Origin: Rhodospirillales bacterium
GTDB taxonomy: Bacteria; Pseudomonadota; Alphaproteobacteria; Rhodospirillales; Defluviicoccaceae
Reading direction: 5' to 3'
DNA length: 64,000 bases
NCBI GenBank assembly: GCA_007694935.1
Contig: REES01000071.1
Span: 1-64,000, forward strand
Shown here: positions 9,669 to 26,538 of the stretch, in pieces
Position numbering within the stretch: the stretch's first letter is position 1
How the letters are laid out: each line of letters begins with the position of its first letter
Notes under the pieces: model-generated
Told to the model about the DNA's origin: nothing
Databases searched by the model: none
Seen by the model: the letters and a program-made list of their open reading frames with translations, nothing else
Position numbers and translations under genes: made by a program

Positions 9669-10982
9669 TCAGAAATTCTCTCGCAGCCATTGGCCGAGCC
9701 GGCCGAACCGCCCTGCCTTCTCGACCGTCGGCCGGTAGGTGCTGGCGAAGCTTTCGTGGGCGTGGTCGGCGGCGTAGCGCAGCAGGCCGATGACCGTGGC
9801 GAACGCCGGCCCGGTCGCCGCATCCGGCACGCCCGGCAACGGCCGGGGCCGGCCCGGCCGCACCCGCTTGTCAAGGATCAGGCCGGCGAGATCGGCCGCG
9901 CCCGCAAGCTGGCTGGCGCCGCCGGTCAGCACAACGCGCCGGCCGGCGATCCGGTCCAGCCCGGCATCCTCCAGGCGGACTCGAACCATCTCGAAGATTT
10001 CCTCCAGACGCGGGCGAATAATGTTCACCAGCATCGAGCGCGGCACCTGGGTGGCGTCGGCGGTGCCGTCGACCCCCATCGGCGGCACCTCGATGAGTTG
10101 CCGATCGTCGGAGGGCGATGGAATGCAACTGCCGAACAGGGTCTTGATGCGCTCGGCCTGGGCCACCGGGGTCGACAGCCCGCGGGCAATATCGTTGGTG
10201 ACCTGCATGCCGCCGACCGGGATGCAGTCGGTGTGGATCAGTTCACCGTCGAAGAACACGGCGATCGAGGTGATGCCGCCACCCATGTCGATCACGGTGC
10301 AACCGAGGGCGATTTCATCATCGACCAGGCAGCCGAGGGCCGAGGCATAGGGCGCAACCACCCGGGCGGCGATGTCCAGATGGCAGCGGCTGACGCAGGT
10401 GGCGAGATTGCGCACCGGTCCGCTGGTGGCGCTGATGACGTGGAGACTGACCCCGAGACGCTGGCCGACCATACCGCGGGGATCGGTGATGCCGCGAGCC
10501 CCGTCCACGGTGTAGCCCACCGGGATCACGTGGACGACGTCGCGGTCGTGTGGCACCACGCCCATGAAGGCGGACGGATCGACCAGGCGGCGCAGATCAG
10601 CGTCACCGATCTCGTGTCCGGCCACCGAGATCTCGCTGGACGTCATCTGCGACTGCGGCGCACCGGCAGAAATGCTGACCGCCACCTGGCGGATGTTCTC
10701 GCCCACCAGGCGTTCCGCCGCCTCCACGCCGGCGCGGATCGCCGCTTCGGCCGCCTCCAGGTCGACGATGGTGCCGCGCCGCACCCCGAGTGAGCAGTGG
10801 TGACCAACACCAGCAACCCGCAGATCGCCGTTGCCGTCGGCGCGGGCGATGAAGCACACCACCTTGGTGGTGCCGATGTCGAGCGCGGCCACCAGACCGT
10901 CACGGAGCCGGGGCTTGGTGCCCTTGCCTGAGCGCTCCAGCACGGTCGGGTCGGTCGCGAAGGCTCCGCCCATGTCGTTCAT
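9669..10982 (-). CDS. ftsA: Cell division protein FtsA
   Basis: Actin-like ATPase that tethers FtsZ filaments to the inner membrane and recruits later division proteins. The chosen start is the ATG at 10982 (437 aa), which overlaps the ftsQ stop by 4 nt and is preceded by an AAGGGGGCGGG stretch. Visible motifs are the phosphate-1 loop [16 protein letters not shown], the phosphate-2 region [15 protein letters not shown] and the adenosine motif [17 protein letters not shown]. The C-terminus LGQWLRENF resembles the amphipathic membrane-targeting helix of the family. It sits directly before ftsZ. Confidence 0.97.
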
Positions 10983-11839
10983 GTATCCCGCCCCCTTGCC
11001 TCGATACGGGTTTCCTCCGACGGTCCGGCACGGCGGACGATCACCTGGTCGGGGAAACGCAAGTCGAACAGCACCACATCCCGCTCGAGGATGCGGTGCT
11101 CCCGCTCGAACTCGGCGAACCGGAGCCATGCCCTCTCCGGATCGACTTCGGGCAGGCGGACCTCGAGCCGGCCGTCGAGGCGGAGATTCCACCGCCTCCC
11201 GCCCACTCGGATCGCCGCCGTCACCCGGTCGCGCAAGCCCGGCTGGGTGTCCAGCAGGTCGATCAGGGCGCGGGTGTGCGCCGGCGCGTCCTCGCCGACC
11301 ACCACCGGCAGATCCCGGAAACGGCCGAGATCACGTTGGGGAATGACACGCCCGGTGCGGTCGACCAGGGCGAACGCACCGCGGTTCTGCCACAACGCCA
11401 GCGGCTGCCGTTCGGTGATGTGGACGATGATGGTGTCCGGCAGCAGCCGCTCCACCGACGCGGCATGCACCCACGGCAGCGTCAGCAGCCGCTCGCGCGC
11501 CTTGCGGATGTCGAGAGCGAGGATCGGCATGCCGGGACGGACATCCAGCGCCTGCAGCAACTCCGGGCGCGGAGTCTCCCGCCGGCCGACCACGAACACC
11601 TCGCCGACCTTGAGGCCGGCGGCCGCGCTGGCATTGAACACCGCCTGCCCGGCGTATCCTGCAAGGCGATGCGGCACACCGGCGGACCAAGCCCACCAGC
11701 CGCCGGCCATCAGCACCAGCACCGTGCCGGCGGCGACGCCGAGGGTCAGGGTCCGGCCGCGCCAAGCCGATACCACCCGCTTGCGCTTCTGACCCCGCCG
11801 GGGGGTCCGGTTCAGGAACGGGAGCGTCAGGAGTCGCAC
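10979..11839 (-). CDS. ftsQ: Cell division protein FtsQ
   Basis: Bitopic inner-membrane protein that links cytoplasmic and periplasmic parts of the divisome. I chose the GTG at 11839 (286 aa), preceded by GGAGG and placed inside the last 13 nt of ddl. There is a basic cytoplasmic tail, one membrane segment ([21 protein letters not shown]), then the POTRA domain ([23 protein letters not shown]) and the FtsQ domain with [21 protein letters not shown]. The stop overlaps the ftsA start by 4 nt. Confidence 0.95.
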
Positions 11840-12714
11840 GCCGCGGCCTCCACCATCCAGTCGACCAGGTCCGGGAATGCAATGCCGGCGTGGGCGGCCT
11901 GTTCCGGCACCAGCGATGTCGGCGTCATGCCCGGCTGGGTGTTCACTTCCAGCATGAACAGGGTATCGCCGTCGAAGCGCATGTCGGCGCGGGAGACGCC
12001 GCGGCAACCGAGCGTTCGGTGCGCCGCCAGGGCGAGCCGCATGGCTTCCGCATAGACGGCCGGCGGCACCTCCGCCGGGACCACGTGCACAGAGCCGCCG
12101 GGGGCATATTTGGCGTCGTAGTCATAAAAGCCGCGCGCGGTGGTGATCTCGGTGACGCCGAGGGGCCGATCCCCCATCACCGCAACCGTCAGTTCCCGGC
12201 CCGGGATGAAGCGTTCCACCATGACCGCCGCTGGGTGGTGCGGCGGCAGCGGATCGCCATCCCGGACGATGGCGACGCCGACGCTGGATCCCTCGTTCAG
12301 CGGCTTGACCACGAACGGCCGCGGCATCGGATCGCCGGCGGCTACCTCACCGGCATCGAGGATGACGTGAGGCGCCACCGGGATCCCGGCATCGGCGAAC
12401 AGCCGCTTGGCCATCGGCTTGTCCATGGCCAGCGCCGAGGCCATCACGCCGGAGTGGGTGTAGGGGATGCCCAGGATCTCCAGCAGGCCCTGGACGCAGC
12501 CGTCCTCCCCCCAGCGCCCGTGCAGGGCATTGAAAACCACGTCCGGCCGCGGTTCCAGCGCCGCCAGCAGCGCCGCCGGGTCCCGTTCCAGCCGGATCGG
12601 GGTCACCATGTGGCCGGCCTCGGCCAGCGCCCGGCAGCAGGCTTCGCCGCTGACCAGCGAGACCTCGCGCTCGGCGGACCAGCCGCCCATCAGCACCGCC
12701 ACCCGCTTGCTCAT
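11827..12714 (-). CDS. ddl: D-alanine--D-alanine ligase
   Basis: ATP-grasp enzyme that joins two D-alanines for the peptidoglycan stem peptide. The 295-aa protein opens with [21 protein letters not shown], and has the ATP-binding stretch [18 protein letters not shown] and the metal-binding end [20 protein letters not shown]. The ATG at 12714 overlaps the murB stop by 4 nt, and its own 3' end overlaps ftsQ by 13 nt. Its place between murB and ftsQ is the usual one in this class. Confidence 0.97.
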
Positions 12715-13651
12715 GAGTCGCCCCCGCCTTCATCAGGCCGGTGCGGGCCTTTGCCGATGCGCCGGATCTCCCATTTGAGCGCGACGCCCGAGCGTTCGCG
12801 CACCCGTTCGCGGACGGCCTCGCCCAGAGCCTCCAGGTCGGTGGCCGTGGCGTCGCCGGTGTTGACCAGGAAGTTGCAGTGCTTTTCCGACACCTGGGCA
12901 CCGCCGATGCGGAGGCCGCGGCAGCCGGCCTGATCGATCAGTTCCCAGGCCCGGGCGCCCGGCGGGTTGGTGAAGGTGCTGCCGCCGGTCGGCGTACGGG
13001 TCGGCTGGCTGGCCTCGCGCAGTTCGCGGATCTCGTGCATGCGCCGCGCGATCACCGCCGAATCGCCGGGCAGGCCGCGCAGCCGGGCGGCGACGAAGAT
13101 CCAGTCGTCCGGCACGGCGCAACGACGATAGCCCAGTCCCAGATCCTCCTTGGCGACCCAGTGCAGCCCGCCCAGGGGATCAAGGACGCGGGCGTCAGTC
13201 AGCACATCGCCGAGTTCAGCGCCGAAGGCGCCGGCGTTCATGCGAAGGGCACCGCCGATGGTTCCCGGGATGCCGGCCAGGAACTCGAGCCCCTGGAGGC
13301 CATGATCCAGGGCTACCCTGGCGACGTTGATGTCGAGCGCAGCCGCGCCGGCCAGTACCTCTTCCCCGGTGACGGTGATGCCGGCGAAGCCCCGCCCCAG
13401 CCGCACCACGACGCCCGGCACGCCGCCGTCACGGACCAGCACGTTGGAGGCGACGCCCAGCACGGTCACCGGCACATCCGCCGGCCTGGCAGCGAGAAAG
13501 GCGGCGAGATCCTCCTCGTCGGCAGGGCGGAACACCACCTCCGCCGGGCCGCCCACCTTGAACCAGGTCACCGGTGCCAGCGGCACATCGGCGGTGTAGC
13601 GGCCGCGCACCGGCGGCAGCCGGTCCAGCAGCGAACTTGGCGCGGCGCCGG

Positions 13652-13655
<4 letters not shown>
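12711..13655 (-). CDS. murB: UDP-N-acetylenolpyruvoylglucosamine reductase MurB
   Basis: FAD enzyme that reduces UDP-GlcNAc-enolpyruvate to UDP-MurNAc with NADPH. The 314-aa protein has the FAD-binding core ([21 protein letters not shown] and [18 protein letters not shown]), the active-site serine loop [16 protein letters not shown] and a C-terminal Glu in LKWEIRRIG. It starts with GTG at 13655, overlapping the murC stop by 4 nt (GTGA), and overlaps ddl by 4 nt at its end. Confidence 0.97.
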
Positions 13656-15084
<1,429 letters not shown>

Positions 15085-15088
<4 letters not shown>

Positions 15089-16227
15089 GCTGCCTCCCGG
15101 TTTCCGAGCGCGACGGGATTGCCGGCGCCGTTACTGCCGGCCAGCGTCATCACCAGATCAGCCAGCCGCTCTGCCGCCTCAGGCACGCCGAAGCGGGCGG
15201 CCCTGGCGGCAGCCTCCGGCAGGGTCTCCCGCACCCGCACCAGGCTGGAGATCAGCGCGGCCAGGCCGTCGGCAGTGAACGCCGGCTGCGGCACCAGCCA
15301 AGCGCCGCCGGCTTCGGCGACGGCGGCTGCATTGGCGGATTGATGGTCGTCCGTCGCAAAGGGATAGGGAACCAGGATCGCCGGCCGGCCGACGGTGGCA
15401 AGCTCCGCCACCGTGGAAGCGCCGGCCCGGGCGATCACCAGGTGGGCCGAAGCCAAGCGCTCCGGCACGTCGGAGAAGAAGGCGGCGAGGTCCGCGGCGA
15501 TGCCGAGCCGATCGTAGGCCGCCCGGACCCGTTCTAGGTCCTCGGGCCGGCACTGCTGCGCCAGCCCGAGCCGCTGCCGGTGTTCTTCCGGCAGGCGGCC
15601 GACGGCCTCTGGAACGATATCGCTGAAAATGCGGGCACCTTGGCTGCCGCCGAGGATTAGCAGCCGGAGCGGCCCGGCCTCATCCAGCTTCGGGTACGGA
15701 CGGCTGCGTGCCAGGGCGAACGCCGGTCGCACCGGCATCCCGGTGTGGACCGCCTTGGCCCGCAGCGCCGCACCGAGATGGCGTGGCGACGGGAAGGCGG
15801 TGGCGATGCGATCGACGCCACGGGCGAGCAGCCGGTTGGCCCGGCCCAGTACCGCATTCTGCTCGTGCGCCACCAACGGGATGCGAAGCATGACCGCCGC
15901 CAGCGTCGCCGGCAGCGAAGCGTAGCCGCCGAATCCCACCACCGCCGCCGGCGCCAGCCGGCGCAGCAGGGTCCGCGCCTGGAGCACACCGATGGCGATT
16001 TCGCGAACGCTCAGGGCCCGGACGACAAGGCCCTTGCCGGCCACCCCGCCCGAGCGCACCCGGTGGGTCTCGACGTCGCCCAGGGCCGGGTCGAAGGCGC
16101 CGCCACGACGATCGGTCAGCAGAACCGGCCGGGCCTCGCGGGACAGCAGGGCCCGGGCCAGCGCTTCAGCGGGGAACAGGTGGCCACCGGTACCGCCCGC
16201 GGCCAGCACGATCAGCGGCCCGGTCAT
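15085..16227 (-). CDS. murG: MurG glycosyltransferase (lipid II synthase)
   Basis: Peripheral inner-membrane GT28 enzyme that transfers GlcNAc from UDP-GlcNAc to lipid I, giving lipid II. The chosen ATG at 16227 (380 aa) overlaps the ftsW stop by 4 nt. The Gly-rich N-terminal loop [19 protein letters not shown], the second-domain loop [19 protein letters not shown] and the donor site [20 protein letters not shown] are all present. The same frame stays open far upstream across ftsW, but that part is not MurG-like. Confidence 0.97.
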
Positions 16228-17351
16228 CGCGGCATCCCCATGCCGGCGCGCTCCCGGGTCAGCGCCAGCATCATCCCCATGCCCCAGGCAAGGGCGATCG
16301 TGGATGAGCCGCCGTAGGAGACGAACGGCAGGGTGATCCCCTTGGGCGGGATCAGGTGCACGGTGGAGGCCATGTTGACCAGCGCCTGCAGCCCGAACTG
16401 CACCAGAAGACCGGCCGCCGCCAGCACCACGAACAGGTTGTCGTGACGGAGGGACCGGCCGAAGCCGCGCACCACCACGAAGGCGAACACCGCGATCAGC
16501 AGGAGGCAGGCGATGATGCCGAACTCCTCCCCCACCACCGCCAGGATGAAGTCGGAATGGGCGTCGGGCAGCACCTCCTTGACCCGCCCCTCCCCGGGAC
16601 CGCGGCCCAGCAGCCCGCCGCTGCGGAACGCTTCCAGCGACCGCGCGACCTGATAGCCGTCGCTGCCGCTGGCCGGATCGATGAAGTTGTCGACCCGGGA
16701 GCGGACGTGGCCGAAGGTGTAGTAGGCGCCGACACCGCCGGCCGCAACGAGGGCGACCAATACAATGACAATGGCCACCGGCAGGCCGATCAGGAAAAGC
16801 TGCGTCATCCACACCGCAGTGATCATCAGGGCCATACCCACATCCGGTTGCAGCAGCAGGGCACCCGCGGTCGCCGCCAGCAGCACCGTCGCCAGCGGGT
16901 AGCCCGGTCCCCTCGGAGCCATCCGACCGGCGGCGATCAGCCACGCCGCGGTGACAGCGAAAGCGGGCTTCAGAAACTCCGATGGCTGGAGCGACAGCCC
17001 GCCGACGTGCAGCCAGCGCGTCGCACCCTTGATCTCCACCCCGACGTGTGGGGTCGCCAGGGTCAGCCCCAGGAACACGATGAACATCGCGATGCCGATC
17101 CGCCGCACCCCGACCGGCGACAGCAGCGAGGCGAACAGCATGACCCCGACGGCGACCGGCAGGAAACTGAGCTGCCGGCGGGCGAAGTAGAAAGTGTCCA
17201 GATTCAGCCGCTCGGCGACTGCCGGCGACGCGGCGAGCGTCATCACGATGCCGAACAGGACCAAGGCCAACAGCGCGCCCAGGGACCAGCGGTCCACCGT
17301 CCACCACCAGCGGCCGAGCAGGCTGGTATCCGTGCGGGAGAACGCGGTCAT
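16224..17351 (-). CDS. ftsW: SEDS-family peptidoglycan polymerase FtsW
   Basis: Polytopic inner-membrane glycosyltransferase of the SEDS family that makes septal glycan strands with FtsI. The 375-aa protein has about ten hydrophobic segments and the family stretches GATRWLHVGGLSLQPSEFLK, LLQPDVGMALMI and the C-terminal FVSYGGSSTIALAWGMGMML. The ATG at 17351 overlaps the murD stop by 4 nt. Its partner transpeptidase FtsI is encoded upstream in the same cluster. Confidence 0.97.
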   Translation of the reverse strand: MTAFSRTDTSLLGRWWWTVDRWSLGALLALVLFGIVMTLAASPAVAERLNLDTFYFARRQLSFLPVAVGVMLFASLLSPVGVRRIGIAMFIVFLGLTLATPHVGVEIKGATRWLHVGGLSLQPSEFLKPAFAVTAAWLIAAGRMAPRGPGYPLATVLLAATAGALLLQPDVGMALMITAVWMTQLFLIGLPVAIVIVLVALVAAGGVGAYYTFGHVRSRVDNFIDPASGSDGYQVARSLEAFRSGGLLGRGPGEGRVKEVLPDAHSDFILAVVGEEFGIIACLLLIAVFAFVVVRGFGRSLRHDNLFVVLAAAGLLVQFGLQALVNMASTVHLIPPKGITLPFVSYGGSSTIALAWGMGMMLALTRERAGMGMPR

Positions 17352-18754
17352 GACGGCCGCTCCCGAAGCCCGGTGCGGACCAGCGCTCGAAACGCGTCGC
17401 CGCGCGCCTCGAAATCGCGGAACTGGTCAAACGAGGCGCAGGCCGGCGACAGCAGCACCACCGGGTTCGGGGTGCCGTTTCGGGCGGCCCGGTCCCGGGC
17501 TGCCGCCACCGCGGCGTCAAGCGTGCCGGTGATGGTGACGGAAACGCGGCCTTCCAACTCGGCGGCAAAGCGCTCTGCGGCCTCGCCGATCAGGAAGGCA
17601 TGGCGGACGTGGTCGAGTTCGGCCATCACGGCGGCAAGTCCGTCGTCCTTGGGACGGCCGCCGGCGATCCAGTACACGTAGTCATAGCAGGCCAGCGCCC
17701 GTGCCGCGGCGTCGCCATTGGTGGCCTTGCTGTCGTTGACGTAGGTCACCCCATCGATCACCGCCACCCGCTCCTGCCGGTGGGGCAGCCCGGGGAACGT
17801 GCACATGGCGCGGGTGGCGACCTCCGTGGCGACCCCAAGCGCTCGCGCCACCGCCAGGGCGGCCGCCGCATTCTGGGCGTTGTGCGGTCCGATCAGGGCG
17901 GGGGCGCGATCGAGATCGAGCACGTCGTGGACGGCGCCGCCGGCCCGCGTTTCGAAGAGCCGCCGGCCCAGGGCGTAGACCCCGCCGGCAACCTCGCCGA
18001 TGCCGGAAACGGTAACGATGCGGGGACCCGGCCGGCGCCGCAACTCCGCCACCACGTCGCGGCAGAACCGGTCGTCGACCCCGACCACCGCGGTGGCGTT
18101 CCCTTGCTGGCCGCGGAAGATCAGCCGCTTGGCCGCCACATAGCCGTCCAGGCCGCCGTGGCGGTCCAGATGGTCGGGGCTGACGTTCAGCAGCACCGCA
18201 ATGTCGCAGGCCAGCGACGGGGTGATCTCGAGCTGATAGGAAGAGAGTTCGAGAACATAGATGCCGCCGGGACCGAGCGCCGGCAGCGACAGCGCCGGCA
18301 CCCCGATGTTGGCACCGACGGCGACACTGCACCCGGCGGCCGTCAGGATGTGGCCGACCAGGGCGGTGGTCGTCGACTTGCCATTGGTGCCGGTGATGCC
18401 GACGACCTTGGCGCCGCCGATCGCCCGGAGCAGCAGTTCCACATCGCCGATCACCGGCACCCCGGCCTCCCGGGCGCGGCGCACCACCGGATGCGGTGCC
18501 GGGTGGGTGTGGGGAATGCCGGGGCTCAGGACAAGGGCGGACGCCTCGGCCAGATCGTGTTCGGCAAGCGGGCCAAGCGGCACGCCTTGACGGGCGGCGG
18601 CGGCCCGTGCCGGTTCGCTGTCATCCCAGGCAACGACGTCCTTGCCGGCGGCGGTCAGCGCCGCGGCAGCGGCAAGGCCGCTGCGGCCCAGGCCGAGAAC
18701 GGCGTAGCGCTGACCGGGAAGGAGAGCGAGGTCGATCACCGCACCGCCCCTCAC
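17348..18754 (-). CDS. murD: UDP-N-acetylmuramoylalanine--D-glutamate ligase MurD
   Basis: Adds D-glutamate to UDP-MurNAc-L-Ala. The 468-aa Mur ligase has an N-terminal Rossmann-like loop ([16 protein letters not shown]), the ATP loop [30 protein letters not shown] and the late motif [15 protein letters not shown]. It starts with GTG at 18754, overlapping the mraY stop by 4 nt (GTGA); an in-frame GTG five codons later is a weaker option. The stop overlaps ftsW by 4 nt. Confidence 0.97.
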
Positions 18755-19839
18755 CTCAGCTTCAACGTCGAGAGGCCGGCCAGGGCCAGGATGGATGCAA
18801 TGATCCAGAAGCGGATGACGATGGTGGACTCGGCCCAGCCTTTCTTCTCGAAATGATGGTGCAGCGGCGCCATGCGGAACACCCGCCGACCGGTCAGCTT
18901 GAACGAGGCGACCTGGACGATCACCGACACGGTTTCCAGCACGAACAGCCCACCCACGATGATGAGGACGATCTCGTGCTTGGTGATGATGCTGACGGTG
19001 CCGAGCGCGCCGCCCAGGGAGAGGGAACCGGTGTCCCCCATGAACACCCGGGCCGGGGGCGCGTTGAACCAGAGGAAGCCGAGCCCGCCGCCCATCAAGG
19101 CGCCGAGGAATACGGCGAGTTCTCCGGTCCCGGTGACGTAGTGGATCTGAAGGTAGTTGGCGAACACGATGTTGCCGACCAGGTAGGCGATCAGCGCGAA
19201 CACCGCCGCTGCGATCATCGTCGGCACGATGGCGAGGCCGTCGAGGCCATCGGTGAGATTGACCGCGTTGGACGTACCGACCACCACCAGCACCGCCAGC
19301 ACCAGGAACCCCCAGCCGAGAGGGACCAGCACGTCCTTGAAGAACGGCACCGCCAGCATCATCCGGAGCGGCTCCGGGGTCAGCAGAATGATCCAGACCG
19401 CCGCCACCACGGCGATCAGCACCTGCAGCACGAGCTTGAGGCGGCCGGGCAGGCCGCGGCTGTTGCGCAGCGCCACCTTGCGGTAGTCATCCAGAAAGCC
19501 GATCGTGCCGTAGCCGATGGTGACGCCGAGGGTCACCCAGACGAATCCGTTGCTGAGATCGGCCCACAGCAGCGTCGACAGGGTGAGTGCCACCAGAATA
19601 AGGAAGCCCCCCATGGTGGGGGTGCCGCGCTTGGTGAGCAGATGGCTCTCCGGGCCGTCGTCCCGGATCGGCTGTCCTCCGGCCTGGTGATTACGAAGCT
19701 GGCGGATCAGCCACGGCCCCAGCACGAAGCTGATGACGAGCGCGGTCAGCACCGCGCCGCCGGTGCGGAACGTCAGGTATCGGAACACGTTGAAGATCGT
19801 GAACTCGTCGGCGAGCGGGAACAGCAGGTGATAAAGCAT
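18751..19839 (-). CDS. mraY: Phospho-N-acetylmuramoyl-pentapeptide-transferase MraY
   Basis: Inner-membrane enzyme that moves phospho-MurNAc-pentapeptide from UDP to undecaprenyl phosphate, making lipid I. The 362-aa, roughly ten-helix protein has the family motifs [13 protein letters not shown], the catalytic Asp loop [16 protein letters not shown] and [15 protein letters not shown], and a C-terminal [13 protein letters not shown]. The ATG at 19839 lies 5 nt after the murF stop. Confidence 0.98.
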
Positions 19840-19844
19840 GTGGC

Positions 19845-21296
19845 CTACCCCGCTTCACCGGCCCGGAAGGACGCCGCGGTTGGCGCCGCGCCCCCGGACG
19901 AGGCGACCAGGGCGCGGACGACCACCCCCATACGGCTTCCCGCCGACCCCTTGACCGCGACCACATCCCCGCCGCGAACGGAGGCCAACACCTGCGGCGC
20001 GAGCGCCTCGGCGCTGTCGGCATGACCGCCCCGCATGGCCGTTGGCAGCGCATCGTGCAGGTGGGCCATCAGCGGACCCGCCGTGAACACGCAGTCGATC
20101 CCATGGTCGCGAAGCGGCGTCACCAGGGCCGCGTGCAGGGCCGGCGCCTCCGCGCCCAGTTCCAGCATGTCGCCCAGCACTGCGATCCGCCGTCCGCTGG
20201 GTCCCGGCTGGCTTCCACCCAGAACGGCAATGGAGGCTGCCATCGACACGGGACTGGCATTGTAGCTGTCGTCAATCACCGCGAGCACACCGCCCCCAAG
20301 CGGAATGCTCAGGCGCTCGCCACGGCCCTTGGGCACCGCAAGATCGGCCAGGGCCGGTGCCACCCTGGCGACGTCCGCGCCCGCAGCCAGGGCGGCGGCC
20401 AGGACGCAGAGGCTGTTGGTGACCCAGTGCGCGCCCGCGACCGGGACGCGGTAGGAGACGGTTCCGCCCGGCACCGCGGCCACGACGTCCGAGCCGCCGG
20501 CACCGCTGTCGGCGGCGACCAGCCGGACATCCGCCTCCGGATGGCTGCCGAAGCTGACGATCCGGGCAGAGGCGAGTGTGGCCGCAGCGGCGGCCAAGCG
20601 GCCGAACTGAGGATTGTCGCGGAACAGCACCGCGGCACCGCCGGGTGCCAGGCCTGCGAAGATCTCCGCCTTGGCATCGGCAATGGCTTCGATCGATGCG
20701 AAGTTGGCCCGGTGTACCGCATCAACCGTCGTGATCACCGCAACGTCCGGCCGCGCCAGCCGCGACAGCGGCGTGATCTCGCCCGGATGATTCATCCCCA
20801 TCTCGAGCACCGCGTATGTGGCCTGGGCGGGCAGCCGGGCGAGACTGAGCGGCAGCCCCCAGTGGTTGTTCAGGTTGCCCTGACTGGCTACGGTCCGGCC
20901 CTCGACCGCGAGCACGATGCGGAGCGCCTCCTTGACCCCGGTCTTACCGACGCTGCCGGTGACCCCGATCACGGTTGCGGCAGTGCGCCGCCGCGCTGCC
21001 GAGGCCAAGCCGTTGAGGCCGGCCATGGTGTCCTCGACGAACAGCAGCGGCGCCTCGGCGGACAAGCCGGCAGGACGGAGGGAGACCATGGCGGCGGCAG
21101 CCCCCTTGGCGAGGGCCTCGGCGACGAACCGATGGCCATCGAAGTTGGGGCCTGCGAGGGCGACAAACAGGTCGCCCGGCTGCAGCGTCCGGCTGTCGAT
21201 GGAAACGCCATCTGCGCGCCAATCCCCGGTCGACCGGCCGCCGGCGGCAGCGGCGGCGTCCGCCGCCGTCCATATGGCCTGCCGCGGCCCGGTCAT
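19845..21296 (-). CDS. murF: UDP-MurNAc-tripeptide--D-Ala-D-Ala ligase MurF
   Basis: Adds the D-Ala-D-Ala dipeptide made by Ddl, completing the UDP-MurNAc pentapeptide in the cytoplasm. The 483-aa Mur ligase has [18 protein letters not shown], the ATP loop [26 protein letters not shown] and [13 protein letters not shown]. The ATG at 21296 overlaps the murE stop by 4 nt. Confidence 0.98.
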
Positions 21297-22771
21297 CGGT
21301 CGGTCCTCCGGACGGCGTCCGCGGCGACCGCGGCGTCGTCGAACGGGATCACCCGGTCGCCGACGGTCTGCCCGGTCTCATGGCCCTTGCCGGCGATCAG
21401 CAGCACGTCGCCGGGATCGAGCCCGGCCACCGCTTGGCTGATGGCGTCTGCGCGGTCGCCGATCTCCCGCGCACCGGGGCAGGCGTCCAGAATCTGCCGG
21501 CGGATGGCCGCAGCTTGCTCGCTCCTGGGATTGTCGTCGGTGACGATGACGTGGTCGGCCTGCTGAGCGGCAATCCTCCCCATTTCCGGGCGCTTGCCGG
21601 CGTCGCGGTCGCCGCCGCACCCGAACACCAGGATCAGACGCCCGGCGACATGGGGGCGGAGCGCCGCCAAGGCCGCCGCCAGGGCATCCGGGGTGTGGGC
21701 GTAGTCGACGTAGATCGTCGCCCCATGAGCGCGCCGGGCCACCGGCTGCATGCGGCCGGGCACGCCCTCGAGCGTCTCCAGTGCCGCCATCCCGGCCTTC
21801 GCGTCGGTGCCGGCGGCGACAGCCATCAGCACGGCGCAGAGCGCATTGGCCGCCTGGAAGTCGCCGACCAAGGGCAGGGAAATCCGCCACACATCACGGT
21901 CCGAGGCAACGGTGAGCCGCTGCCCCGTGGGGTTGGTCTCCAGGCGCAGCAGGCGGAGGTCCTGGCCGGACCGGCCGTAGCTCAGCACCCGGACGCCGCG
22001 GCGGACCGCGGCGCCGGCCAGCTCTTCGCTCAGGGGATCGTCGGCGTTGAGCACGACCGCGCCACCTTCCGCCACCAGCTCACCGAACAGCCGGCGCTTG
22101 GCGGCGGCATAGGCCTCCATCGAGCCATGGTAATCCAGGTGGTCGCGGCCCAGGGTGGTGAACCCGGCGACGGCGATACGCACGCCGTCCAGACGATGCT
22201 GGGCGAGGCCGTGACTGGAGGCCTCCATGGCCAGATGCTGCACCCCGGCATCGGCAAGCTCGGCGAGCATGCGGTGAAGGTCGACCGGATCCGGGGTGGT
22301 CAGGTTGCCCGGCCGGGCGATGCCGGGGGCCACCAGCCCGAGGGTGCCGAGGCTGGCGCCGGGGGTACCGGTGGCGAGCCAGATCTGCCGGAGGAAGCTC
22401 ACCACCGAGGTCTTGCCGTTGGTGCCGGTTACCGCGGCCACGGTGGCCGGCTGACGCCGATAGAAAGCCGCCGCCATCAGGGCAAAGCGGCGGCGCGGAT
22501 TGTCATCGATCAGCAGCAGCGGCGGTGGCGAGCCGGGCGGGGCCTCGATGCCGCCGGCACCGGGCGACGCCAGCACCGCGGCCGCGCCGCGACGCACGGC
22601 ATCGCCGATGAAGGCGCGGCCGTCGCTGCGGCTGCCGGGCAGGGCCGCAAACAGGAAACCCGGCTCAACTCGCCGGGAGTCACTGGTCAGGCCGCTGATC
22701 CGAATCTCCGAAATCATATCCTCCGGGCTCACGTCGATGGGCAGATTCCCGATCAGGTCAACGAGGCGCAC
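21293..22771 (-). CDS. murE: UDP-MurNAc-L-Ala-D-Glu--meso-diaminopimelate ligase MurE
   Basis: Adds the third stem-peptide residue. The ATP loop is AVTGTNGKTSVVSFLRQ, and the motif DNPR (VTDDNPRSEQAA) is the one that selects meso-diaminopimelate, so the cell wall is DAP-type. I chose the GTG at 22771 (VRLVDLIGNL, 492 aa) because AAGGA lies 7 nt before it and the N-terminus then aligns with the family; an in-frame TTG at 22795 would add eight residues. With the GTG start the overlap with ftsI is 14 nt. Confidence 0.97.
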   Translation of the reverse strand: MRLVDLIGNLPIDVSPEDMISEIRISGLTSDSRRVEPGFLFAALPGSRSDGRAFIGDAVRRGAAAVLASPGAGGIEAPPGSPPPLLLIDDNPRRRFALMAAAFYRRQPATVAAVTGTNGKTSVVSFLRQIWLATGTPGASLGTLGLVAPGIARPGNLTTPDPVDLHRMLAELADAGVQHLAMEASSHGLAQHRLDGVRIAVAGFTTLGRDHLDYHGSMEAYAAAKRRLFGELVAEGGAVVLNADDPLSEELAGAAVRRGVRVLSYGRSGQDLRLLRLETNPTGQRLTVASDRDVWRISLPLVGDFQAANALCAVLMAVAAGTDAKAGMAALETLEGVPGRMQPVARRAHGATIYVDYAHTPDALAAALAALRPHVAGRLILVFGCGGDRDAGKRPEMGRIAAQQADHVIVTDDNPRSEQAAAIRRQILDACPGAREIGDRADAISQAVAGLDPGDVLLIAGKGHETGQTVGDRVIPFDDAAVAADAVRRTDR

Positions 22772-24554
22772 CCCGCCATCCTTCGGTATCGGCAATGGCG
22801 GTCCGCAAGCTGGCGAGTAGCAGGTGCCGGCGGCGGTCGGGCCCGTCGGGCCCGGTCACACGGGGCACGTCGGCCGGGTCCACCGGGCGCACCCCCAGCA
22901 CAGGGGCGATCCGTTCGGCGATGCGGCGGACCACGGGGGCGGCGACCCAGCCGCCGGTTGCATAGAAGTGGGTGCTGCGGTTGCCTTGGGGCTCGTCCAG
23001 GATCGCCAGCACAACATAGCGGGGGCTATCAACGGGAAACACGCCGATGAACGACGACATCCGGGCGTTCCTCATATAGCGACCGCCGACAATTTTCTCC
23101 GCCGTGCCCGTCTTGCCGCCGAGCCGGAGGCCGTCGGCATCGGCACGCCGGCCGGTACCCATGATGACATTGAGCCGCATCAGCGCCCGCATGGTGCGCG
23201 ACGTCTCGGCTGACAAAACCGGCTTCGGCTCGGGGAGACGGTCGCCACGGTCCACAATGGTGGCCGGCATGAAAGTGCCGCCATTGGCGATCACCGCCAC
23301 CGCCTGAGCCAGGTGCAGCGGGCTGACGGCGATACCGTGACCGAACCCGATCGTCATGATGTTGATGTCTCGCCACTGCCCGGGCACCAGGGGAGCGCCT
23401 ACCTCCGACAGTTCCAACGCCAGCGGCGACAGCATCCCGAGTTGATTCAGGTACATGCGCTGGACCGCGCCACCCACGTCAAGGGCCATGTGGGCGGACG
23501 CGATATTCGACGAGTGGACAAGGATTTCCGGCAGGCTGAGCCAGCGATTCTGCGGTCGATAGTCGCGGATCGTATGCCCACCCCTTCGAATCGGCTGGCT
23601 TGCGTCATAGCCGCCGGTGAGGGTGATGGCACCGCTGTCCAGTGCCATCGCCGCGGTGATGAGCTTCATGGTGGAGCCCATTTCGTAGACGCCCTGGGTC
23701 ACCCGGTTGAAGCGGGTATCGTCGTCGGAGCGACCGCGGTGGTTGGGATCGAAATCGGGCAGGGAGACCATGGCGACCACCTCCCCGGTGACGACGTCCA
23801 GCACCAGTCCGGCGCCGCCGATGGCCCGGTACTCCCGCACCGCCGCCAACAGTTCCTCGCGCACGATCTGCTGGATTCGCACGTCCAGGCAGAGACGAAG
23901 CGCTTCGCCGTCGCCGAGGCTGGCATCGAAATGGCGCTCGACCCCGGCAAGACCCCGGCTATCGATATCGGTGAAGCCGAGAACATGGGCGGCGACCACA
24001 CCCTGAGGGTAGACCCGCCGCTGGTCGTCACGGAAGCCGATGCCGGGCAGGCCCAGGCGGTTCACCGCGTGCTGCTCACGCGGGGTCAGGTGCCGCTTGA
24101 TCCAGGCGAACCGGCCATCGTGGGTGAGCCGGGCCAGTAGTTGGCTGCGATTCAGCTCGGGGAAAAGCGCCACGAGGCGATCGGCGGTATGTTCCGGATC
24201 AATGACATCCCTGGGATCGGCGTACAGCGACCGGGTCGGCAGGCTGGTCGCCAGCAGGACGCCATTGCGGTCCATGATGTCGCCGCGCGCCGCTTCCCAT
24301 GTGGCACTGTTGGCCAAGGCCAAGCCAAGATTGGGATCACTGCCTGCCGCCAGGTCGACCAGACGCCCGACCACGCCGCAGAAGGCGAGCAGGAAGCAAA
24401 GCCCGACCACGACCAGCCGGGTGTGGGCTACGTCAACGGCCCGCAGCCGCCCATGTTCCGCCGGGCTCTGCGGCGACAAGCCACCGTTGACCGGCAACGG
24501 CAGGACAAGCTGCGCCGGCTGCCGGCCGCGCGCCCGCGGCGCCCGCCGGCTCAT
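22758..24554 (-). CDS. ftsI: Septal peptidoglycan transpeptidase FtsI (PBP3)
   Basis: Class B penicillin-binding protein that cross-links septal peptidoglycan with FtsW. The 598-aa protein starts at the ATG at 24554, overlapping ftsL by 4 nt. It has a basic N-terminus, one membrane segment (LVVVGLCFLLAFCGVVGRLV), the pedestal domain and a transpeptidase domain with the three active-site motifs: STMK (EMGSTMKLITAA, nucleophile Ser), SSN (VHSSNIASAH) and KTG (GGKTGTAEKIVGG). Confidence 0.97.
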   Translation of the reverse strand: MSRRAPRARGRQPAQLVLPLPVNGGLSPQSPAEHGRLRAVDVAHTRLVVVGLCFLLAFCGVVGRLVDLAAGSDPNLGLALANSATWEAARGDIMDRNGVLLATSLPTRSLYADPRDVIDPEHTADRLVALFPELNRSQLLARLTHDGRFAWIKRHLTPREQHAVNRLGLPGIGFRDDQRRVYPQGVVAAHVLGFTDIDSRGLAGVERHFDASLGDGEALRLCLDVRIQQIVREELLAAVREYRAIGGAGLVLDVVTGEVVAMVSLPDFDPNHRGRSDDDTRFNRVTQGVYEMGSTMKLITAAMALDSGAITLTGGYDASQPIRRGGHTIRDYRPQNRWLSLPEILVHSSNIASAHMALDVGGAVQRMYLNQLGMLSPLALELSEVGAPLVPGQWRDINIMTIGFGHGIAVSPLHLAQAVAVIANGGTFMPATIVDRGDRLPEPKPVLSAETSRTMRALMRLNVIMGTGRRADADGLRLGGKTGTAEKIVGGRYMRNARMSSFIGVFPVDSPRYVVLAILDEPQGNRSTHFYATGGWVAAPVVRRIAERIAPVLGVRPVDPADVPRVTGPDGPDRRRHLLLASLRTAIADTEGWRGAPR

Positions 24555-24934
24555 CGGATCACCTGCCCGCCGCGTCCGGTCGCCAAACCGGCAACCGGCG
24601 TCGTCGCATCGTTTTCCCGCCCGGGGCTGTCCGGCGCGAACGGCCGCGGCAGCGCAGCGAACGACCCGACCTGGCGCGGCCCCAGCGGGGCCAAGTCGAG
24701 GTGGCGCTCCGCCAGACGTCGCAAGCGCTCCGGATCGGTGAGGTAGCTCCACTCCGCCTGGAGGACATGGTGGGCCCGCCGCTCGACTTCGATCTGCCGG
24801 TGGACCCGGCTGAGCTGTCCCTCCAGGTCCTGCACCTGGTACTTGATCGAAAACAGCACCATGGCGAGGCCAATCGCCAGGATCACGAACACCACCGTGG
24901 TGTGCTTGACGAGGGCTGTCCAGCTACTGCTCAT
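24551..24934 (-). CDS. ftsL: Cell division protein FtsL
   Basis: Small bitopic divisome protein that works with FtsB and FtsQ. The 127-aa protein has a short cytoplasmic tail, one membrane segment (VVFVILAIGLAMVLFSI) and a predicted coiled coil (VQDLEGQLSRVHRQIEVERR) followed by the EWSYLTDPERLRRLAERHL region typical of alphaproteobacterial FtsL. Both ends overlap their neighbours (rsmH and ftsI) by 4 nt. FtsL sequences are poorly conserved, so the call rests on architecture, that region and position. Confidence 0.93.
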   Translation of the reverse strand: MSSSWTALVKHTTVVFVILAIGLAMVLFSIKYQVQDLEGQLSRVHRQIEVERRAHHVLQAEWSYLTDPERLRRLAERHLDLAPLGPRQVGSFAALPRPFAPDSPGRENDATTPVAGLATGRGGQVIR

Positions 24935-25923
24935 GCGGCTCTCCTTCGTGGCTTGGCCACGTCCGGCAACGGCCAGGCCGGGGCTTCGGTGCGCTCAGCC
25001 GCGCGCATGCGGGCCGAGCGGGCCCGCGGGTTGGCTGCCACCTCGGCCGCGGTGGGCTTGAAGGTGCCGCGCCGGAGCAGGCGGAAGCTCGGTGCGGGAC
25101 CGCCCGGTGACGAGGACGCGGGTCGATGCCGGGAGGGTGCGGGCGCGGTGCCGCTCCGGGCACGGAGGAAGCCCTTGACCCGCCGGTCCTCAAGCGAGTG
25201 ATAGGCCACCACCACCAGCCGTCCGCCCGGTGCCAGCAGCCGCTCCGCCGCGACCAGGCCGCGATCGAGCTCCCCCAACTCGTCGTTGACGCGGATGCGA
25301 AGCGCCTGGAAGGTCCGGGTGGCGGGATCGACGCTGCCCGGCGCCGCCGGCACCACCGAGCGGACCAGGCTGGCGAGTTCCAGGGTGCGCCGGATCGGCG
25401 CGCTCCGGCGTGCAGCAACCACCGCACGGGCGATCCGCCGGGCGGCGCGTTCTTCCCCGAATTCCCGGATGATGGCCGCGAGTTCGGCCTCGGGCAGGGT
25501 ATTGACCAAGTCGGCCGCGGTGGCGCCGGCGGAGGGGTCCATTCGCATATCGAGCGGGCCGTCGGTGCGGAACGAGAAGCCACGGGCGGCTTCGTCCACC
25601 TGGGTGGACGCCATGCCGAGGTCGAAGGCGATTCCGTCGACGCTGCGGCGCCCGGCCTCAGCCAGCAGCCGCTCCATCTCCCCGAAGCGGCCGGCTATGA
25701 GACGAAGGCGATCACCCCACTCATGCAGCATGTGGCGGCCGCGGGCCAGGGCATCGGGATCGCGATCGATCGCCAGCACCCGGCATGGGGCCGCGGTGAG
25801 GATCGCACGGGCGTAACCGCCGGCACCGAAGGTGGCGTCCACATACTCGCCGCCCGGCCGCGGGGCCAAGGCCGACAGCACCTCCGCAACCATCACCGGC
25901 GTGTGCGACGCGGCCGCGGTCAT
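24931..25923 (-). CDS. rsmH: 16S rRNA (cytosine-N4)-methyltransferase RsmH
   Basis: SAM-dependent methyltransferase for C1402 of 16S rRNA, formerly MraW. The 330-aa protein has HTPVMVAEVLSALAP, the SAM loop YVDATFGAGGYARAIL, GIAFDLGMASTQVDEAARG and the late motif LVVVAYHSLEDRRVKGFLR. The ATG at 25923 overlaps the mraZ stop by 4 nt. Second gene of the dcw cluster, as in most bacteria. Confidence 0.98.
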   Translation of the reverse strand: MTAAASHTPVMVAEVLSALAPRPGGEYVDATFGAGGYARAILTAAPCRVLAIDRDPDALARGRHMLHEWGDRLRLIAGRFGEMERLLAEAGRRSVDGIAFDLGMASTQVDEAARGFSFRTDGPLDMRMDPSAGATAADLVNTLPEAELAAIIREFGEERAARRIARAVVAARRSAPIRRTLELASLVRSVVPAAPGSVDPATRTFQALRIRVNDELGELDRGLVAAERLLAPGGRLVVVAYHSLEDRRVKGFLRARSGTAPAPSRHRPASSSPGGPAPSFRLLRRGTFKPTAAEVAANPRARSARMRAAERTEAPAWPLPDVAKPRRRAA

Positions 25924-26387: not shown

Positions 26388-26475
26388 GCCGGTCCCTTGT
26401 CCTCAAGTCGCCCTGCCGGGCCCCGATCGGCCATCAGCACGGCAACGCCACCGCACGCCAATCACCCAGCCTGTA

Positions 26476-26510
26476 TGGGGTATCATGGGCATGGATGGGC
26501 GTCAATGGGT
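26476..26510. promoter_or_regulatory. Array of four TGGGN boxes, probable MraZ operator
   Basis: TGGGG (26476-26480), TGGGC (26486-26490), TGGGC (26496-26500) and TGGGT (26506-26510) repeat with exactly 5 nt between boxes, a 10-nt period that places them on one DNA face. A degenerate fifth unit TGGAA follows at 26516. E. coli MraZ is known to bind tandem TGGGN repeats separated by 5 nt upstream of mraZ. Here the TGGGN strand is opposite to the mraZ coding strand. Confidence 0.85.
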
Positions 26511-26538
26511 TTCCATGGAATTACTTGGTTAACCAAGT
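26511..26538. repeat. Two adjoining palindromes next to the MraZ boxes
   Basis: TTCCATGGAA (26511-26520) and ACTTGGTTAACCAAGT (26523-26538) are perfect palindromes 2 nt apart. The 16-bp one is the size of a dimeric repressor site. The regulator is unknown. Confidence 0.6.

Follow-up and report, generated by a model that had tools for sequence, protein, structure and literature searches.

A predicted MraZ operator interleaved with the division-cluster promoter across the Alphaproteobacteria

In E. coli, according to the summary in PMC7761207, MraZ is a repressor acting from repeats upstream of mraZ. Its operator at Pmra (Eraso et al. 2014, as summarised in PMC7761207 and PMC8475190) has a TGGG core, a 10-nt period and a place in front of its own operon, and the locus described here is alike in all three. 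In E. coli K-12 the boxes are sense-strand GTGGG and stand 43 nt in front of the ATG; with the published leader length of 38 nt they span about -5 to +20 around the transcription start. The B. cenocepacia promoter PmraBc carries four repeats of 7+3 nt, i.e., again a 10-nt period, and a gel shift with MraZ has been shown; these repeats lie downstream of the -10 and overlap the start site, like in E. coli (PMC7761207). The Mollicutes site, in the account of Fisunov et al. 2016 cited in PMC8475190, consists of AAAGTG[T/G] direct repeats in the mraZ promoter, and on the M. genitalium chromosome it is described there at mraZ only. Its box sequence differs from that of our locus. Among Alphaproteobacteria, R. 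sphaeroides also has a single promoter that feeds mraZ and the dcw cluster; however, there it is followed by a long leader with a terminator and the sRNA UpsM (PMC5089854).

In the open-access literature we found no description of an alphaproteobacterial MraZ site. An MraZ autoregulatory operator is thus already known as a kind, while the antisense layout interleaved with the promoter, and a second element specific to the order, provisionally appear to be new.

The window, i.e., the whole 64-kb stretch of DNA that was analysed, contains a division cluster in which mraZ-rsmH-ftsL-ftsI-murE-murF-mraY-murD-ftsW-murG-murC-murB-ddl, and further on ftsA and lpxC, follow each other on one strand, see Table 1. 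From mraZ through ddl the genes overlap or nearly abut. The product of mraZ carries the D-x-K-G-R motif and scores over the curated PF02381 cut-off; it is an MraZ, although it falls under the stricter NF001477 model of NCBIfam (146 bits, cut-off 162). In a tree of MraZ proteins it is placed near Rhodospirillales.

Table 1. Features of the division cluster and its upstream region in the window. Box columns and the start column are those of the class alignment.
Feature	Position	Strand	Remarks
mraZ, 155 aa	25920..26387	-	Pfam PF02381, 55.3 bits (cut-off 23); NCBIfam MraZ models
rsmH (mraW)	24931..25923	-	TIGR00006; 4-nt overlap with the end of mraZ
ftsL	24551..24934	-	NF049847
ftsI-type transpeptidase (PBP2/FtsI family)	22758..24752	-	
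murE, murF, mraY, murD, ftsW, murG, murC, murB, ddl, in this order	11827..22795	-	overlapping or nearly so
ftsA	9669..11192	-	TIGR01174
Predicted transcription start, column 40	26469	-	position carried over from S. meliloti, inferred here
MraZ box (predicted), column 30	26475..26479	-	ATGGG on +, read as CCCAT on the mraZ strand; the -10 ends with its Cs
Extended -10	26477..26485	-	TGATACCCC, with TGATAC inside; class consensus TGNTATCCC
MraZ box (predicted), column 20	26485..26489	-	CCCAT; its T doubles as the T of the extended -10 TG
MraZ box (predicted), column 10	26495..26499	-	CCCAT
-35 element	26500..26505	-	TTGACG; TTGAC is in box register in most class members
MraZ box (predicted), column 0	26505..26509	-	CCCAT; its T doubles as the leading T of the -35 TTGACG
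Degenerate fifth box	26515..26519	-	TCCAT (ATGGA on +), 4/5 letters, same 10-nt step
Second element, perfect 16-bp palindrome	26523..26538	.	ACTTGGTTAACCAAGT; order consensus ACTTTgTTAACCCAAGT

The first-pass annotation had reported four TGGGN boxes spaced by 10 nt, plus a degenerate fifth, all on the opposite strand from mraZ, and direct reading of the sequence bears this out. On the plus strand ATGGG occurs four times at an exact 10-nt step in 26475-26509, with the boxes ending at 26479, 26489, 26499 and 26509; the array was thus correctly located, but its first box begins at 26475, and at 26476 only if it is written TGGG. As mraZ occupies the minus strand, the array reads on the strand of the gene as CCCAT-N5 repeats, 88 nt upstream of mraZ and overlapping the conserved promoter. 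The pattern (TGGG N6)x3 has two overlapping matches in the window, both at the array, and none in 100 shuffles, and a search of the 3.09-Mb genome gave no further match. The four-box match is complete (16/16 letters). When the 260-nt upstream region was dinucleotide-shuffled 20,000 times, no shuffle equalled it, and the top score was 15/16, reached six times. Hence the locus has direct repeats with a TGGG core, a 10-nt period and a position in the mraZ/dcw promoter, as is expected of an MraZ operator.

The promoter itself is woven into the boxes. By aligned columns the class consensus is CCCAT-TGACN-CCCAT-NNNNN-CCCAT-GNTAT-CCCAT, in which the -35 (TTGAC) and the extended -10 (TGNTAT) occupy the spacers and have letters in common with the boxes. 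This alignment drew on the promoter letters and was therefore redone with the boxes alone, whereupon TTGAC was in register in 104 of 137 cases, with another 25 one nucleotide off, and TGNTAY in 134 of 139; the two are 20 nt apart in 95 cases and 21 nt in 23. In E. coli terms the conserved register is a -35 TTGACN, a 17-nt spacer and an extended -10 TGNTATCCC. In the 25 shifted loci (e.g., L015, L017, L020) the -10 is still in register with the ladder, so that the -35 can apparently shift from one spacer length to another, two being seen, while the -10 seems tied to the boxes. For the window, the promoter proposed earlier holds for its -35, TTGACG at 26505-26500 of the minus strand, but not for its -10, as GATACC at a spacing of 15 nt is 2 nt off the register conserved in the class; the -10 hexamer is TACCCC at 26482-26477 (minus strand), 17 nt from the -35. 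A generic sigma-70 scan called no promoter at the array, as the last position of the -10 is C instead of T.

The transcription start can be placed by comparison with S. meliloti, where a published RNA-seq analysis gives an mraZ leader of 170 nt (PMC5089854). Counted along the same array in S. meliloti 4H41, the ATG falls at column 210, which puts the start at column 40, 7-8 nt past the -10, as the promoter predicts; the leader length comes from a different data set and possibly a different strain, and rests on the annotated start codon. Carried over to the window, this gives a leader of 82 nt from the predicted start at 26469 to the mraZ ATG.

The array is conserved far beyond this genome. Loss of the spacing in close relatives would have spoken against an operator, but all eight mraZ loci of the same family (8/8) retain the period-10 array. 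Across the order and the class, 144 of 157 mraZ upstream regions have three or more CCCA boxes with a period of 10, scored as 11 or more of 12 letters. With any other period from 6 to 15 the same regions give 0-5 hits, and with one shuffle per region 1; control DNA further upstream of mraZ reaches the threshold in 1 of 155 regions. Usually the ladder has four or five boxes (105/134 regions, counting boxes with 4/5 letters or better), and nearly all Alphaproteobacteria covered share this layout. The presence of at least four boxes and their antisense strand, which the first-pass annotation set against the E. coli repeats, are both real, but they are the class norm and no peculiarity of this genome.

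Since some box letters are common to the -35 and the -10, the boxes could be a by-product of promoter conservation, or chance repeats, without operator function. However, the column 10 box, which lies outside the promoter letters, ranks with the best conserved ones (C97 C100 A98). The ladder is also prolonged at period 10 by flanking boxes, and both points make this explanation extremely improbable.

An exact 34-letter operator-promoter pattern was also searched against 84,980 named species genomes and gave at least 120 matches. Among the 120 matches listed, 113 have an MraZ start downstream, and 4 others end too soon to judge. The titles displayed among these are alphaproteobacterial or unresolved Proteobacteria, save for one metagenome contig labelled Nitrosomonas (L185). 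This contig bears the alphaproteobacterial pattern and is probably mis-binned. A few class members are without a clear array, e.g., the 0.9-Mb genomes L064 and L157. In three loci of one family (L386, L387 and L151 of f53) the -10 region is recognisable and the MraZ boxes are eroded, with 17-21 of 28 template letters left in L386 and L387. This family is possibly Rhodobacteraceae; if so, the loss of boxes may accompany the UpsM leader control of R. sphaeroides.

The array follows mraZ. Exact triples occur 105 times in 210 class genomes, and 90 of them adjoin mraZ. Four lie away from it, two of which are repetitive and one of which has, on a separate contig, a promoter of the mraZ type in register, while 11 are in mraZ-bearing genomes whose mraZ coordinates were unlisted; one of these 11 (L392) was confirmed as an mraZ promoter. 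An exact triple is found in 77 of the 176 genomes that have mraZ vs none of the 34 without it (Fisher P = 3e-8, uncorrected for kinship). The triple CCCAT test is strict, and weaker sites at other genes would escape it.

These counts bear on whether the array could be the site of another division-gene regulator and not of MraZ. Such a regulator could be sought in the second conserved element just upstream of the array, or in CtrA, for which motifs have been reported near S. meliloti mraZ (PMC3616915). We regard this as very unlikely, as the array follows the presence of mraZ and is nearly confined to its promoter, its core and period agree with characterised MraZ sites, and CtrA sites differ in sequence. 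Judged from its sequence and distribution, the box ladder is almost certainly where the repressor MraZ binds.

Similar repeats exist in viral DNA. IMG/VR holds 42 stretches with four CCCAT boxes at period 10, which were rejected as MraZ sites, as they are mostly uniform tandem repeats and none has an MraZ-like motif downstream. In one viral sequence (L295, region 344-746, IMGVR_UViG_3300022538_001369) about ten AGATGGGAAA-like units with a 10-nt period lie just upstream of a small gene (453-746), whose product has a GRLTVPKV stretch that recalls AbrB/MraZ-type folds; a Pfam search with it was without match.

Compared with E. coli, the boxes in the window are antisense instead of sense, and they lie at about -40 to -6, across the -35 and the -10. 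Like E. coli, most gammaproteobacteria sampled have sense-strand boxes that follow the -10. Of the 34 loci taken from other classes, 21 show sense GTGG triples with 11 or more of 12 letters, and 0 show antisense CCAC or CCCA triples. Strand and position thus changed between the classes at a constant period. The sense-strand placement downstream of the -10 is seen neither in the window nor across the class, and because it belongs to the E. coli form, we file the site as an operator variant.

We suggest, with a probability of roughly 0.85, that the array is an MraZ operator of a class-wide variant form through which the protein represses its own operon by promoter occlusion. MraZ would bind the row of CCCAT/ATGGG boxes along one face of the helix. 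This row and the only recognisable promoter are interleaved, so that MraZ and RNA polymerase would be rivals for the same bases; MraZ, covering -40 to about -6, would sit over both the -35 and the -10. Rising MraZ would then shut off its own gene together with rsmH, ftsL, ftsI and the mur/fts genes behind it. Direct self-repression by occlusion had been proposed from the first look at this locus. We find it the best reading because the array spans the -35, the -10 and the stretch leading to the predicted start of the cluster, keeps its spacing and co-occurs with mraZ; the binding, its repressive sign and the competition with polymerase we infer from the DNA and from the described systems.

The sign could also be the opposite, with MraZ binding the array as an activator or as a bifunctional regulator. 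A mycoplasma MraZ is described as an activator in work cited in PMC7761207, and the -10 TACCCC is poor, weak enough to need help. Against this, the boxes lie over both the -35 and the -10, where a bound protein normally blocks polymerase. In M. genitalium, dcw transcription goes up on MraZ loss (PMC8475190), and E. coli MraZ represses. Activation is therefore unlikely.

The second element lies further upstream, with its centre about 62 nt before the predicted start. TTAA, as part of the consensus AAgACTTTgTTAACCCAAgTA, lies 23-24 nt ahead of the array in 30 of 76 regions of the same order vs 1 of 58 others. Of 120 genomes of the order, 10 have the strict form ACTTTNTTAACCCAAGT, each in one copy and always beside mraZ, and the reversed-pattern control had no match in these 120 genomes. 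Further near matches to ACTTGGTTAACCAAGT in the genome of the window are at control level. Class I activators bind near -62, and the element is a candidate activator site. CtrA was considered as the binder of this upstream TTAAC element and rejected, as TTAA-N7-TTAA is rare (5/134). The single copy of the strict element per genome argues against a global regulator such as CtrA; a half-site is still conceivable.

It can be speculated, as a tentative model to which we give somewhat less than even odds, that the alphaproteobacterial dcw promoter is a composite read by both polymerase and MraZ, strand-reversed and about 35 nt upstream compared with the gammaproteobacterial geometry. It might then be, in much of the order, a two-input switch, set by MraZ and by a dedicated activator at ACTTTgTTAACCCAAGT.

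MraZ, which stands at the head of the division cluster, is one of the most widespread transcription factors of bacteria, and its sites have been worked out in few lineages. An operator-promoter design that is precise to the letter and class-wide makes direct tests possible in Sinorhizobium, Agrobacterium or Caulobacter. The change of strand and place at a constant 10-bp period is relevant to the way in which the MraZ ring reads DNA, and also to the step at which it represses, be it occlusion or another.
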